IMG/VR virus record: IMGVR_UViG_3300011116_000215
Span: 1-31,624 of that record
DNA from: a virus
Length of the DNA: 31,624 bases
Reading direction: 5' to 3' (one strand)
Part shown: positions 8,121 through 22,985 of the stretch, piece after piece
How the letters are laid out: each line of letters opens with the position of its first letter
How positions within the stretch are numbered: position 1 is the first letter of the stretch
Made by a program: the position numbers and the translations under genes
Notes under the pieces: model-generated
The model's input: only the letters and a program-made list of their open reading frames with translations
The model's database searches: none
Told to the model about the DNA's origin: nothing

Positions 8121-9640
8121 GCGCCCATCCATGAAGTGTGCATTGCGCCGTCTTGAGCGTTATACCGGCGAGTGGGCTCAGTATACTCGCGGTGAGCCAC
8201 GGGAAAAGCAAACGTCACGCATATAGCGTCCGCTGCGTCTGGTGATGCCAAGCCCCGTGCTTTCATTTCTTTCTTGCTCTCCAAGAAGATTGTTCCACGT
8301 GAATCAGGCTTCATCTTAGGCGAAATCAAATCCGTCTTCAAGAACCTGTCGGTCGGGATACTAGCAGATTTTAGCCATTCCTTCATCTCGCCCCACATCT
8401 GAGCGCGCATATTTCCGTACATTATCGGGTTTTTGGCCTTATTTCCAAAGTTCACGCCCTTAATCTTGTACCTCTGCTCCTTGAGCCTGTCCACAATCCC
8501 AGCCCCCAGCCCACCCTCGTCAATCACCACCAGGGTCGGCTTATATTCCTCAATCGCGTCGATCACATACCCCACGACCGTCATCGTGTCGTCGCCCCGG
8601 TGCCGCGTTATGTTAACAATATCCCGTCCTTGGCGCACGGCGATGACCGTGGCGTCCGCGCCGTAGCGCGCCGGATCAACGCCGATGACGATGGGCGCTG
8701 ACAAATCCTTGTACCGCTCCCGCTTCATGGCCTCGTCCACTATGTCCGAGCCGATGAACTGATCGTCCCCCGCGCTTGGGAACATCCCGTAGACCTCGAC
8801 GTGCGCTTGGCTGGAGTCTGGCCCGTACTCTTGGATGATCCGCTCGTAGACCTGTTTGTCCGTACCCTCGACCGTGCGCGCATCCACCACTTTGGTCTTC
8901 CAAAACGCCCGCTTGGAGTTAAACGCCTCGTAGAAGTACCCCGTGTTACGGCGCGGGTTGGAGAACGCCAGCCAAAAACGGTTGGGCGTGTTTTCAGTAA
9001 AGAACCCGCTGGTTACCGCCCAAATCGTGTCGTCGATACCGGACGCCTCATCAAACACCACCAGCACGCCGTCGTAGTTATGCACACCCGCGTATGCGTC
9101 AGGGTTCTCCGCTGACCACAGTCGCCCTTCGACGCCCCAGTACCGGGTGCCCTTCTTCAAGTCCCGCTCGACCAGTTCGGTCAGCCACTTGGCGGGCATT
9201 ACCCGCGTGGCGCTCACCTCAAACCAATGTGAGTTAATCGCCATTGCCAGCCACTTGGTGATCTCGGCCCAGGTGATTGATCTGAGCTGGCTTTCCGAGT
9301 TGGCCGAAATGATCGTCGTCGAGCCGATGCGGGTCGCCAGCATCCAGATTGTGATCCAACTGACCAGGGCCGACTTGCCAATACCGCGCCCCGACGAAAT
9401 TGCGCTTTGCAGCACGGCGTAGTCCAACTGCCCCTTGTTTGCTTCGATATGCTCGGCGATGTCTTGCAGCACCTCGCGCTGCCATTTGCGCGGCCCCTTG
9501 AAGTTTTCCAGCGGCGTGCCTTTGACGCCCCACGGGAATACCAACGCTACAAAGTTGAGCGGGTTGTCCTTGATGCGCGGCGTCCACAGACGCGCCATCA
9601 GGGCTTGTTCGTCTTCAGCGCTGTATCTGGTTGACTGCAT
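8117..9640 (-). CDS. terL: terminase large subunit (packaging ATPase-nuclease)
   Basis: 507 residues with both expected domains. The ATPase domain has a Walker A SGRGIGKS at residues 83-90 and a Walker B VLVVFDEAS at 192-200. The RNase H-like nuclease begins at VIGVDPARYGAD (about 318-330), followed by VVIDEGGLGAG (371-381) and a late acidic cluster in SPDAADAICVTF. It cuts concatemeric DNA and pumps it through the portal in the cytoplasm. The start ATG 9638-9640 lies inside the 3' end of the small-subunit gene (26-nt overlap), and the stop is coupled to the next gene by ATGA. Length and motif order are typical of P22-style headful terminases. Confidence 0.95.
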   Translation of the reverse strand: MQSTRYSAEDEQALMARLWTPRIKDNPLNFVALVFPWGVKGTPLENFKGPRKWQREVLQDIAEHIEANKGQLDYAVLQSAISSGRGIGKSALVSWITIWMLATRIGSTTIISANSESQLRSITWAEITKWLAMAINSHWFEVSATRVMPAKWLTELVERDLKKGTRYWGVEGRLWSAENPDAYAGVHNYDGVLVVFDEASGIDDTIWAVTSGFFTENTPNRFWLAFSNPRRNTGYFYEAFNSKRAFWKTKVVDARTVEGTDKQVYERIIQEYGPDSSQAHVEVYGMFPSAGDDQFIGSDIVDEAMKRERYKDLSAPIVIGVDPARYGADATVIAVRQGRDIVNITRHRGDDTMTVVGYVIDAIEEYKPTLVVIDEGGLGAGIVDRLKEQRYKIKGVNFGNKAKNPIMYGNMRAQMWGEMKEWLKSASIPTDRFLKTDLISPKMKPDSRGTIFLESKKEMKARGLASPDAADAICVTFAFPVAHREYTEPTRRYNAQDGAMHTSWMGA

Positions 9641-10046
9641 TGTCTGTGTTTAACTCATTGGCAACCACATCTACGACACGCATCTCTGCTTCTTGCAGCG
9701 CCTGCGTGATGGATATGCGCTGGTCTATGTCCACCGTGATGGATTGCTTGGCGACCCAGCCGTGCTGATGCTTGAGAATCTCAAGCGCCGCCTTGGCATC
9801 GCCTTCGCGGGCTGCTTTGTGCAGGATGTCGGCCATCTCACGTTCGCCGTCGGCTTTGCCCTTGATTGCGGCCATCTCGGCCAGTGGGTCAAATTGGCAT
9901 AGGTGCCGGTACTCTTCAGGCCGCATCCCCGACGCCAGGGCCAGCGTGTCGCCCTTGAGCCCTAGCTTGGCAGCGTCGTATATCGCCTGCAAGCGCGATT
10001 CGGTCGCTTGGACGTGTCGGACAGTGAGCGGCAGTGACTTGAACAT
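9615..10046 (-). CDS. terS: terminase small subunit
   Basis: 143 residues. The N-terminal half is a likely helix-turn-helix DNA-binding region: ATESRLQAIYDAAKLGLKGD, then TLALASGMRPEEYRHLCQFD. It is followed by a helical oligomerisation region (MADILHKAAREGDAKAALEI, LKHQHGWV) and an extended tail ending NTDNAVNQIQR. It would recognise the packaging start site and hand DNA to the large subunit. A strong AGGAG site lies 5-9 nt before ATG 10044-10046. It is the first gene of the head operon and abuts the repeat-rich control region, a common place for a packaging site. The assignment depends on position plus fold-like pattern, since small terminases diverge strongly. Confidence 0.8.
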   Translation of the reverse strand: MFKSLPLTVRHVQATESRLQAIYDAAKLGLKGDTLALASGMRPEEYRHLCQFDPLAEMAAIKGKADGEREMADILHKAAREGDAKAALEILKHQHGWVAKQSITVDIDQRISITQALQEAEMRVVDVVANELNTDNAVNQIQR

Positions 10047-10283
10047 TTGTTCTCCTGCGCCTGGGAGGCGTGTGCTGGAAGTTTACACTAAAAAAAAATT
10101 TTGTTTGCGAGCCCTCCGTTTACGTTGGCCCAACCGCTCGGCCCTACCCCTCCCCCCTCGGCCAAAATCCCTAGGCAAAATGGCAAGGGTTGGTTGGCTA
10201 TGTTGGCTATGCCAATCGAGTTGGCCAGCAAATGGCCAGCGCCTGGCCGATTGGCAATGATTACTGAATTGCTTGGGGCTGGT

Positions 10284-10330
10284 TGTTGGCTATGTTGGCT
10301 ATCCAAAACAAACCGCCAACATAGCCAACA
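10284..10330. repeat. perfect 16-bp inverted repeat with 15-nt loop
   Basis: The forward iteron at 10285-10299 and the inverted one at 10315-10329 form arms that extend one base outward (10284 with 10330). This gives 16 paired bases around a loop at 10300-10314. No T-run follows on either strand, so it is not an intrinsic terminator. It could extrude as a cruciform or be a paired binding site. Confidence 0.7.
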
Positions 10331-10441
10331 CCATGCGGCGGTGCGCGCGCAGCATTTTGCGGCGGGTTGGCGGTTGTTGGCTATGTTGGCACTTTTGACA
10401 CCCGTTTTAAATCGCTCCAAGGTGTTTGTAAGTATTGTAAG

Positions 10442-10458
10442 ATTTCACATTATGAAAT
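10442..10458. promoter_or_regulatory. dyad ATTTCA-CATTA-TGAAAT, possible operator
   Basis: A perfect 6-bp dyad with a 5-nt centre lies in the AT-rich part of the control region, between the fourth and fifth iteron copies. It could be an operator for either divergent operon. No protein partner is identifiable in this window. Confidence 0.3.
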
Positions 10459-10588
10459 ACACAAGTTAACCCTAGAACTAGATAATCAATAGCCAACATA
10501 GCCAACAAATTGAATTCCCTCAGCGATATGCATCCAAACAACCGCCGCCAACAATGCGCCTACTGTTGGCAATGTTGGCACCAGGGCA

Positions 10589-10705: not shown

Positions 10706-11002
10706 ATGGAAACTCTAAAGTTCAACACTCAGCGGATGTACACCGACAAAGGCCAGCGCATTGCTGCCGCTTTGCTCGACAACGGCGACATTTACTTCTC
10801 CGATATTGACCGCCACATTGACGGAACAATCTCCGCCAACGGCTTGACGCGCGACGAAATATTAGGTTTTAACCTTTTCAGCCGCGCCGAAATCATGCGC
10901 GCCTATGACCATAGCGAATGGAAAATGGGTTGCAGTCAGCTAGGTTTTGAAGCTGAACGCGACTTGCGCCAAAAGCTGAACGCTATTGCAAAGACTCTTT
11001 AA
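10706..11002 (+). CDS. hypothetical protein, first gene of rightward small-gene operon (98 aa)
   Basis: 98 soluble residues: METLKFNTQRMYTDKGQRIA, then AALLDNGDIYFSDIDRHIDG, and a C-terminal SEWKMGCSQLGFEAERDLRQ. The first half has a beta-strand plus 'DNGDIYFSDIDRHIDG' turn pattern; the second half is helical. An AAAGGT site precedes ATG 10706. I do not recognise a family with a known function. It is the promoter-proximal gene of a ten-gene run, so it is probably an early-expressed host-interaction or regulatory protein, as an inference from position. Confidence 0.7.
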   Translation: METLKFNTQRMYTDKGQRIAAALLDNGDIYFSDIDRHIDGTISANGLTRDEILGFNLFSRAEIMRAYDHSEWKMGCSQLGFEAERDLRQKLNAIAKTL

Positions 11003-12552: not shown

Positions 12553-12611
12553 TCATTCTTGCAGCGGCGATAGCCGCCGCCATCTTAGCCATTCTTTTCG
12601 ATCTTGATTAG
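12549..12611 (+). CDS. possible 20-aa membrane peptide at end of operon
   Basis: 20 codons from an ATG coupled by ATGA to the preceding gene: MIILAAAIAAAILAILFDLD. Residues 2-17 are a full hydrophobic helix. The TAG abuts the intrinsic terminator, so the frame fits exactly between the upstream stop and the transcript end. Against it, a GC-rich dyad (12564-12580, GCGGCG-ATAGC-CGCCGC) could explain the Ala-rich reading, and its 3' end overlaps the convergent primase-helicase gene. Treat it as a candidate only. Confidence 0.4.
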   Translation: MIILAAAIAAAILAILFDLD

Positions 12612-14888
12612 AGCCCCTTCGGGGGCTTTTTCAATGGCGCGGCGCAAGTCCGAGCGGCTGGATGCCGCCAATTCAGGCGCGCAAAAGATGTGCTTCTTGG
12701 TTTGGTACTCGCGGGAGGCCAAGCGCCCCATATCGACCCATCCGGCTTCCTTGAGGGCATGGAGGAGCGCGGGGGGTACGATCTTGATGGCTGCGGGGGC
12801 GTAGGCTTGCAGTTCGTCACACAAGGCGTAGAAGGGCGCGCCAATGACACCGGAGGCAAATGCGCGCTGGCGTGTTCTGATCATGTTGACCAGGAAACTT
12901 TCCGCGCCGCTCATGCCATGCTCGACCATGATCATCTTGGCCTCCGTCATTGGGGGCGCTGCGTTCGGGTTCCACGCCGACACGTCCCGAGTGTGCAAGT
13001 ACGCAGACACGGCGGCGAACCCGCCTTGGCGCTCGTACCAGTTCCAAAGGGCGACCGCCTCTGCCTCGGGCAACTTGCCTGCTTCTGCCCATAAGACAAA
13101 CCAGCGACGATCTTCGCTGGGCAACGATATGGCTACACGTTCGTTTGAAAATGCCACTACGAACACGCGATTGAGGGCATAGTAGGGGTGCAAGCCCTTG
13201 CGGTTGACCAATAGCAGTTCGGGGGGCGCTGCAATGATTGGCTTGAGAGTGTTCTCTAGCGCTCTGCGGTCTTTGGCCTCTGCTTGGCGCAACTCGGCTA
13301 TCTCCATCACTTCACACTCAAGGGCATAGCCCCATTGCGAACTGAGGTCTTCGTTCTTGACCAGCGAACAATTGTGCTTGGCCTTGCCGCCTATAGCCCA
13401 AAAGAACGGGGCGAAAAGGGTGTCTTTCCCTGACCCATGATTGCCGCCCAAAAGGATGGCGTGATTGATCTTGTGGCTGGGGAACTGCACTTTGTGTGCC
13501 AGGGCGTTAAGCAAATGCTCACGCTCGAATTCAATCGGCACCATGCGCTCGACATGGCGCATCCACAGGCTAACGTCACCCGCTGCGGGAGCAGGCCGCG
13601 CATTGCGCCAGCGGTTGCCGTAGACCAACCCCTCACGCGACACCAGCACCGATTCGCCTGCGGCGTAGGTGATACCTACGAGCGCCCTTGCGCCCTTGTC
13701 TTGGCGGTACTCGTCAAACGCAAACGAGGCTTCGATCTTGCGCTTGCCGTGGCGCGACTTGCATTCGATATGCCGAAACATGGCGTTGAACGTCTTACGC
13801 ATCAATTCGCGTCGGTCTTGCATATCAAAATATGCGTCATCGTCTTGTATATACGCAAACCGCTCGAACCAGCCGGACATCTCGACACGGCCTAGTTCGC
13901 GCTGCTCAACCTCTGCGATGACCGCTGCGGCCTCGTCGGGATATGAAGGTGTCGGGGATAGTTTGGCAAGCGCGTTGTCCATCACCGCTGCCAGCAACTC
14001 ATCACGCAGGCCGTGCGACCGCTTGGGCCCACCCTGCTCTTCCACCCACGCGAGATAGGCAACGCTATCCCATTCGGAGCAATGCTCGTGCAGGCAGCAA
14101 TACGCCCTGTTTAAAGGGTGATAGCGCCCCATCGGGTTGCCGTCGCTATGCTCGGCGCTATTCGGGCAAACGACGCCCCACCAACCGCTACTGTTGCCTT
14201 TCTCCAGCAAGTCGCCACGCGCTGCCGTCCACGCCAGCACGTCATCGCCGCCGTCGTCTGTAAGCCGGATCGGGCGTACTGTGGCGGTGTCGGCTGGGTT
14301 GGGAGTGACGCCCAAGGCGGTGCATATCTCTGCAAGGCTAAACTCACGCTCTGGGTGAAACTCGACCAAGGCAGACGCGAAGCGGTCGCGGCCAGGCTTG
14401 AGGTTGATCGAACCAGGCAGTCTGAAATTGCGCACGGGGTTGATCGCGCCGCCGTCGGTGTAGCCTGCTTCTGCGATGGCGACAATGGCCGCGCTGAATT
14501 CGCCCTTCATGGGCTGATCGTCCAGAGCGAAGGTGTAGCCATACTGGTAGTTATTGGGGCTGGTCTCCATGATCCAAGTCGGGTCGATGGGCGGCACCTT
14601 GGCCTTGGTGCCCACGTCATCCAGCACTAGGAACGCTACACGTTCGCAGGCATCGGCCTTGGCTGCGGGCTTGCCCTCGTCGAATCGGTCGATGATGAAG
14701 CAGCCCGTGTTGCAATACCACGCTTGGTCGGGCTTCCACTTCTTGGGCAGGAACGCAGGCCAAGCGCACTTGATTGCACCATCGGCGTGATACTGCACCT
14801 CGCCATCTTTAAGGATGGGCTTTTGCCGCACAAACAAAATAACCTCGCCCTCGGGCGCAATGTTTTCGAGATAAGTTAAGAAATTCAT
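12585..14888 (-). CDS. primase-helicase: RepB-like primase, zinc motif and SF3 (DUF5906-like) helicase
   Basis: 767 residues. The N-terminal about 200 residues look like an archaeo-eukaryotic/RepB-type primase: VAFLVLDDVGTKA at 84-96 with acidic D90/D91, and PVRNFRLPGSINLK at 151-164. Residues about 240-270 hold a Cys/His cluster (C241, H247, C264, C265, H267, H269, C270) that probably binds zinc. The C-terminal half is an SF3-type helicase with Walker A GGNHGSGKDT (481-490), an acidic Walker B-like CEVMEIAEL (525-533) and a sensor VVAFSN (577-582). The surrounding pattern resembles the DUF5906 helicase seen with NrS-1-type prim-pols. It would unwind and prime the phage fork. The start is coupled to the polymerase stop by ATGA. 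The last 27 bases overlap the convergent small operon. Confidence 0.85.
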   Translation of the reverse strand: MNFLTYLENIAPEGEVILFVRQKPILKDGEVQYHADGAIKCAWPAFLPKKWKPDQAWYCNTGCFIIDRFDEGKPAAKADACERVAFLVLDDVGTKAKVPPIDPTWIMETSPNNYQYGYTFALDDQPMKGEFSAAIVAIAEAGYTDGGAINPVRNFRLPGSINLKPGRDRFASALVEFHPEREFSLAEICTALGVTPNPADTATVRPIRLTDDGGDDVLAWTAARGDLLEKGNSSGWWGVVCPNSAEHSDGNPMGRYHPLNRAYCCLHEHCSEWDSVAYLAWVEEQGGPKRSHGLRDELLAAVMDNALAKLSPTPSYPDEAAAVIAEVEQRELGRVEMSGWFERFAYIQDDDAYFDMQDRRELMRKTFNAMFRHIECKSRHGKRKIEASFAFDEYRQDKGARALVGITYAAGESVLVSREGLVYGNRWRNARPAPAAGDVSLWMRHVERMVPIEFEREHLLNALAHKVQFPSHKINHAILLGGNHGSGKDTLFAPFFWAIGGKAKHNCSLVKNEDLSSQWGYALECEVMEIAELRQAEAKDRRALENTLKPIIAAPPELLLVNRKGLHPYYALNRVFVVAFSNERVAISLPSEDRRWFVLWAEAGKLPEAEAVALWNWYERQGGFAAVSAYLHTRDVSAWNPNAAPPMTEAKMIMVEHGMSGAESFLVNMIRTRQRAFASGVIGAPFYALCDELQAYAPAAIKIVPPALLHALKEAGWVDMGRLASREYQTKKHIFCAPELAASSRSDLRRAIEKAPEGALIKIEKNG
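12612..12631 (+). terminator. intrinsic terminator of the rightward small-gene operon
   Basis: The stem AGCCCC-TTCG-GGGGCT (12612-12627) has a stable UUCG tetraloop and is followed by a T-run at 12627-12631. It starts one base after the TAG of the 20-codon frame. It lies inside the 3' coding end of the opposing primase-helicase gene. Confidence 0.85.
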
Positions 14889-22649: not shown

Positions 22650-22985
22650 ATGCATAAGTCAAACCATCAAGCCATACGGATGCTGCTCCAGCAGTATCAC
22701 GACGGCCTGACCGCTGCCGACGCCGCCGAGCGGCTGGAGAAAGACCCAAGCCACATCCGGCGTGCGTTAGCTGAAATGCCAGACGCCTATATTGACCGCT
22801 GGATAGCCCACCGCAAACAATGGACTGCTGTATGGTGCGTTATCGTCGCGCCAGAGAACTGCCCCAAACCAAGTGAGAAACCAAATGCCAGACCTACCGA
22901 ACTTCGCCGCATGGAACCACGAAACCTTAGCGAAATTCGCTTTGGATTCGTACTTACGAATGCAAGCCCAACAGGACGCCATTGA
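22650..22985 (+). CDS. helix-turn-helix protein (111 aa)
   Basis: 111 residues. The N-terminal half is a helix-turn-helix: QAIRMLLQQYHDGLTAADAA, then ERLEKDPSHIRRALAEMPDA, followed by YIDRWIAHRKQWTAVWCVIV. The 'DGLTA..AAERL...P.HIRRAL..MPD.YIDRW' pattern is a familiar phage family predicted to bind DNA. The C-terminal about 33 residues overlap the next gene in another frame and look unconserved. This is the only obvious DNA-binding regulator of the rightward operons, so it may act as a late or middle regulator; that is inference. Confidence 0.75.
   Translation: MHKSNHQAIRMLLQQYHDGLTAADAAERLEKDPSHIRRALAEMPDAYIDRWIAHRKQWTAVWCVIVAPENCPKPSEKPNARPTELRRMEPRNLSEIRFGFVLTNASPTGRH

Follow-up and report, generated by a model that had tools for sequence, protein, structure and literature searches.

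In satellite phage P4, the alpha protein is a single polypeptide that unites a primase and a helicase with a winged helix at the C-terminus, and its winged helix binds the repeats of the origin, after which unwinding and priming follow, as outlined in PMC4234260 (citing Yeo et al. 2002 and Ziegelin and Lanka 1995). The replication protein of plasmid pRN1, called ORF904, is likewise a primase-helicase, in which the helicase is of the SF3 type and the C-terminus forms a winged helix (PMC4234260). Unlike the array described here, the origin of pRN1 contains no iterons but a large stem-loop (PMC4234260). In the PLE satellites of Vibrio cholerae, the DNA-binding domain of RepA covaries with the origin iterons, the modules being swapped, in a setting where a nuclease directed at the origin attacks (PMC8263062). 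For the DUF5906 primase family, we found no description of an origin in the open literature searched.

The stretch of DNA analysed here (the window) is an IMG/VR contig of 31,624 bases from a P22-like podovirus, and encodes a portal protein, terminase, DUF5906 primase-helicase, DNA polymerase, exonuclease and SNF2 helicase. The phage group to which it belongs is large, uncultured and found in freshwater, and includes hundreds of contigs. The window lacks the major capsid, tail adaptor and gp10-like genes found in relatives, and because these are missing at its ends (positions 1 and 31624), the contig is ~5-6 kb shorter than the full genome. An array of iterons occupies the gap between two divergent operons, directly upstream of terS (Table 1). 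We conclude that this gap, at positions 10193-10582, is very probably the replication origin of the phage, and that its iterons are probably bound by the phage's own AEP-primase/DUF5906-helicase. The array, its conservation and phasing, the AT-rich island and the covariation between wing and iterons were computed here.

Table 1. Features of the proposed origin gap and of the proposed initiator gene in the window
Feature	Position	Strand	Basis or remark
Small terminase (TerS), left flank of the array	9615..10046	-	position beside TerL
Iteron dimer 1, GTTGGCTAT GTTGGCTAT, motif ATAGCCAAC on the - strand	10193..10210	-	
Single iteron-like unit GTTGGCCAG	10220..10228	-	
Iteron dimer 2, arm 1 of the conserved inverted pair	10285..10302	-	
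Iteron dimer 3, ACCGCCAAC ATAGCCAAC, arm 2 of the conserved inverted pair	10312..10329	+	
Single iteron-like unit GTTGGCGGT	10366..10374	-	
Iteron dimer 4, adjoins the AT-rich island on the terS side	10376..10393	-	
AT-rich island, 95 bp, 67% AT (window 46%), likely DNA unwinding element	10394..10488	.	
Iteron dimer 5, ATAGCCAAC x2, adjoins the island on the early-operon side, opposite orientation	10489..10506	+	
Single iteron-like unit GCCGCCAAC	10544..10552	+	
Iteron dimer 6, GTTGGCAAT GTTGGCACC, one mismatch versus the 15-mer	10565..10582	-	
98-aa protein, right flank of the array, encoded first in the right-hand early operon	10706..11002	+	not conserved
Proposed initiator and iteron binder (767 aa), an AEP-type primase joined to a DUF5906 (D5/SF3-like) helicase	12585..14888	-	
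Predicted C-terminal winged-helix domain of the primase, residues 656-755	12624..12923	-	AlphaFold2, VIA-align
Wing loop ASREYQTK, residues 724-731, predicted base-reading element	12696..12719	-	

The initial annotation reported six copies of a 15-mer in the gap, and this array is real. Exact copies of GTTGGCTATGTTGGC lie at 10193+, 10285+, 10315-, 10376+ and 10492-, with a one-mismatch copy at 10565+, and the window contains no further site at 0 or 1 mismatch. When up to 3 mismatches are allowed, the window has 11 matches, compared with a mean of 1.32 and a maximum of 6 in 100 shuffles. The true unit, however, is not the 15-mer but a direct repeat of 9 bp, (GTTGGCTAT)n, that mostly occurs as a dimer. 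The iteron is thus a 9-bp unit, ATAGCCAAC, arranged in head-to-tail dimers. Tandem direct repeats in non-coding DNA, as expected of an iteron-type origin, are present. The exact 15-mer occurs in at least 118 IMG/VR stretches, with two or more copies in at least 17 of those listed; 16 of these 17 belong to this phage family, and the sole exception (L098) carries its two copies in a repetitive tail-fibre-like ORF.

Relatives were taken from IMG/VR as TerL homologues. Across 67 of their gaps, identical 5-mers are found 9 bp apart 1367 times, versus ~70-440 times at the remaining lags between 5 and 40. At least three lag-9 pairs are present in 66 of the 67. The pattern NNN[GA][CT]CNAC yields 364 dimers in 99 gaps versus 0-3 in dinucleotide shuffles; as this pattern was itself derived from the data, the lag-9 count is the unbiased test. 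Iteron cores found across the phages are GCCAACA, GCCCACA, GCCTACA, GCCGACA, GTCCACA, GTCCATA, ACCCAGA and GACTACA. It had been proposed that absence of the 15-mer from close relatives would argue against a functional array. Many very close relatives do lack the exact 15-mer, yet they keep the array with a different core, and absence of the 15-mer would mislead because the sites are recoded rather than lost. Origins whose sites differ in this way from one close relative to the next are missed by searches for exact repeats. In most phages, variation at the N base of the core comes without a change in the wing, and since this base changes without a change in TerS or primase, it is largely degenerate.

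The iteron dimers flank an AT-rich island and have opposite orientations on its two sides. When gaps are read in the orientation of TerL, the '-' dimers are those nearer to terS and the '+' dimers those farther from it, and an AT-rich segment separates the two sets. In relatives, this island is 64% AT versus 48% for the proximal block, and the AT-richest 60 bp fall inside it in 42 of 47 gaps, where 7.6 are expected; an AT-rich region adjoining the iterons, where unwinding takes place in iteron-type origins, is thus found in these 42 relatives. A rule of 30.5-bp spacing, suggested from the window, did not hold, as distances across 99 relatives track the DNA helix, with a period of ~10.4 bp for dimers of the same orientation and ~10 bp for opposed dimers (null fraction at most 0.001). 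Cumulative GC skew, which had been offered as a check, does not turn at the gap, either in the window or averaged over 18 relatives. To our knowledge, this layout of 9-bp dimers opposed around an AT-rich island is different from that of P4.

The N-terminus of the proposed initiator matches AEP primases (6zp9, 3h25 and 3h20, each with probability 1.0) and also RSF1010 RepB'. The primase of pRN1 ORF904 is of the AEP type. The helicase part, which lies in the same protein as it does in P4 alpha, matches Pfam DUF5906 (E 8e-10), and its only sequence match in the PDB is a remote one (E 0.025) to the NrS-1 phage primase (6k9e, 6k9c). An AlphaFold2 model of the whole primase has a mean pLDDT of 50, yet residues 660-750 are confident. 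Because the whole-primase model is poor, only the C-terminal domain was trusted; a separate model of residues 600-767 has a pLDDT of ~84-92 over 660-749. The elements of this domain follow the order helix-strand-helix-helix-strand-strand, and its VIA-align matches are nearly all winged helices, with modest Z scores of 4-6 and a best of 6.2. Residues 618-718 of the NrS-1 primase align with it at Z 4.2, in a comparison confined to the proteins. Foldseek gave no match with E under 0.001 for either the whole-primase or the C-terminal model, and P4 alpha's own domain is absent among the structure matches listed.

The window protein therefore resembles P4 alpha in joining primase, helicase and a predicted C-terminal winged helix, for which binding to the origin is suggested by the covariation described below. 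Unlike P4 alpha, which has a bacterial Toprim primase, it has an N-terminus matching AEP primases and a DUF5906 helicase. Because a bacterial Toprim primase domain is lacking, we do not class this system as P4 alpha-type, although the two may work alike.

Iteron class covaries with the wing of this predicted winged helix. In an alignment of primase C-termini, the wing is GRLKSRRYDTKKH in phages with GTCC iterons versus GRLASRGYQTKKH in their GCCN sisters. Among 123 distinct phages, K724 together with D or E at 729 is found in 32 GTCC, 6 mixed and no GCCN phages, whereas A, S, G or H at 724 is found in 59 GCCN and no GTCC phages. One further GCCN phage has K724 with T at 729, which brings those outside the K724 and D/E729 combination to 60 GCCN and 0 GTCC. 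On a tree of primases from which the winged helix was left out, iteron class, residue 724 and residue 729 each change 7 times. Supported branches provide 5 independent pairs that differ in class; residue 729 agrees in 5 of 5, and residue 724 agrees in 4.7 on average and disagrees in 0. The corresponding sign test gives p = 0.06, the minimum possible with 5 pairs, and the recoding events that can be counted as independent number only 5-7.

A scan of 1375 columns of primase, TerL and TerS ranked primase 727, 729 and 724 as the top three. Residues 727 and 729 account for the whole of the information on class, compared with ~60% for the best columns of TerL and TerS. No column of the polymerase, SSB-like protein, exonuclease or portal reaches 1.0, whereas wing residues 727 and 729 do so in the same rows; among the seven proteins scanned by column, only the primase wing predicts iteron class perfectly. 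A near-identical set of phages provides an example. L517, with GCCAA iterons, and L485 and L518, with GTCCA iterons, have TerS proteins that are 100% identical and are 98.5-98.6% identical over primase residues 1-655. Their wings differ by A724K, G727R, Y728H and Q729D, and in their gaps the flanks are conserved while the iterons are swapped site by site.

Residue 726 is associated with another base of the core. Where R726 is present the C of ACA is present, and without R726 this C is lost, as in phages with S726 and GTCCATA (L235, L237) or A726 and GCCAAT (L449). In the L313 group, Q726 occurs with ACCCAGA and H726 with ACCCATA, and phages with M724 and R726 have GACTACA, in which ACA is retained. 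This association of residue 726 with base 8 comes from few lineages, and 26 loci have no dominant word. In one lineage, S724 occurs with GCCGACA. Where the wing has L722 and K724 but not D/E729, a clear 9-mer array is mostly lacking, with ACCCACA in some of these phages. A first test, which compared identity over the whole primase by N base, revealed no covariation, because the N base is degenerate and the informative bases are 4 and 8.

The initial annotation proposed a binding platform for a replication initiator or a master regulator, and stated that no obvious cognate protein was known. The first of these proposals is supported by the tandem iterons, their helical phasing, the AT-rich island between opposed iterons and the residue-level covariation. 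This covariation also points to the 767-aa primase-helicase as the probable cognate protein. The other proposal, that the array is an operator through which a phage regulator, possibly the primase itself, controls the two divergent operons without there being an origin, agrees with its position between these operons and with the fact that an initiator could also autoregulate. We regard it as unlikely, because the array-bearing phages have no conserved regulator in common, because the protein that covaries is a primase-helicase encoded ~2 kb away rather than next to the array, and because an AT-rich island between opposed iterons is typical of origins. Two of the proteins suggested earlier as binders do not fit: the 98-aa protein is not conserved across array-bearing relatives, and the HTH protein (22650-22985) is found in 10 of 29 records and is missing in several relatives that bear the array, G012, G013, G020 and G021 among them. 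The remaining early genes offer no common candidate, as the early operon is highly variable. Homologues of the HTH protein in G018, G001, G026 and G025 contain one in-frame TGA, which might reflect overlapping frames or a stop.

Some packaging sites, such as that of phage P1, are arrays of repeats. The array lies directly upstream of terS and mostly co-occurs with TerS of the window's type, and it could thus be a pac site bound by the adjacent small terminase, another of the proteins suggested earlier. This explanation is very unlikely, in that identical TerS proteins accompany different iteron classes in L517 and L485/L518, and no TerS column explains the class (the best reaches 0.58 of 0.93). 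The covariation of the wing argues strongly against it, and phages with unrelated terminases retain opposed repeats around an AT-rich island. In the L313/G019 group, the primase is ~67% identical to that of the window, the terminase is unrelated and a 9-mer array is not recognisable; many members nonetheless have an AT-rich stretch with ATGACAATTTGACCC or ATGACTACA repeats in opposed orientation on its two sides. In L313 and some of its relatives, the 9-bp periodicity is strongest outside the origin gap, where it arises from G-X-Y-like coding repeats, and was set aside. DSL-LC05-type phages combine a homologous TerL with a different primase and a polymerase of family B. Of their gaps, 5 of 52 have at least three tandem segments, versus 30 of 42 with window-type TerS and DUF5906 primase; 12 of 42 phages with a DUF5906 primase, the L722 wing group included, have no recognisable 9-mer array.

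The inverted repeats might instead form hairpins in RNA or single-stranded DNA, for example as priming sites like those of RSF1010, to whose RepB' the primase N-terminus is matched. An inverted dimer pair with an offset of 28-29 bp is present in 24 of 99 relatives, and positions 10280-10334 of the window fold strongly as DNA (-19.2 kcal/mol, z -8.2). However, the arms of this pair differ at the N base in L284, L320 and L323, so that their complementarity is not kept, and direct repeats with helical phasing indicate duplex sites. Because the arms need not match at N, protein binding to duplex DNA is favoured, and hairpins are highly improbable. Binding of host DnaA to the repeats as DnaA boxes is scarcely credible: TTGTCCACA, the GTCCACA form, fits a DnaA box, but the window class ATAGCCAACA deviates from it, unlike sites of the DnaA/oriC type, and the sites change with the wing of the phage primase. 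A DnaA-like reader encoded by the phages was likewise rejected, because a DnaA C-terminal domain was absent from DSL-LC05 and the 28 IMG/VR family records searched, and was found only in the distant MW202483.

In the origin that we propose, iterons, mostly head-to-tail dimers that flank the 95-bp island with their ACA ends outward, would be bound as duplex DNA by the primase-helicase through its C-terminal winged helix. The wing loop, residues 724-731, would read the iteron core. Copies bound on one face of the helix could then melt the island, and the bound primase-helicase would load as helicase and prime synthesis. From the sequence comparisons, we infer physical binding, melting of the island and initiation at the gap.

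We tentatively suggest that origin and initiator have been recoded together repeatedly between near-identical phages, a few wing residues changing in concert with the iterons, perhaps driven by an antagonist, and that the series yields a residue-to-base code. Such an antagonist, targeting the origin, may be an origin-directed nuclease, a satellite or incompatibility with co-infecting relatives. In PLE the whole RepA_N domain and the origin are exchanged, whereas in the group of the window a few wing residues of a primase-helicase change along with the iterons. If this suggestion is correct, residues 724, 727 and 729 would pair with core base 4, and 726 with base 8, in a code for the wing of a winged helix. 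The phages would provide natural pairs of initiator and origin by the dozen, with specificity switched by few residues, and a concerted change in the specificity of an initiator and all its sites would become directly testable. An uncultured freshwater phage group would also gain a testable origin and initiator.

Other repeats are present in some of these gaps. Palindromes of the AAGTTAGTGnnCACTAACTTAG type form a second repeat family, with several copies each, among the iterons of L063, L069, L082 and ~20 other relatives. A GCCCACATTGCCCACACGACCCACA repeat beside terS remains C-type in K724 relatives whose other iterons are GTCC (for example, L045, near -470 from TerL), and may have a separate reader such as TerS. 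In the distant relative L207 (MW202483, 28200-29000 and 31423-31719), the gap contains GTTTATGTAAAC repeats together with ACTACCAAC tandems, and a DnaA C-terminal domain is present in a small protein that this phage encodes. Repeats of the TGACCCAGTGGGTCA type are found in the equivalent gap of L206 (OR003940, 33300-33990) and in DSL-type relatives, which have another replication module, and are possibly the origin sites of these phages. In the origin gap of L468 and L469, the 9-bp iterons are replaced by threefold 10-bp nnnTGACAAT repeats, which are opposed across an AT-rich island.
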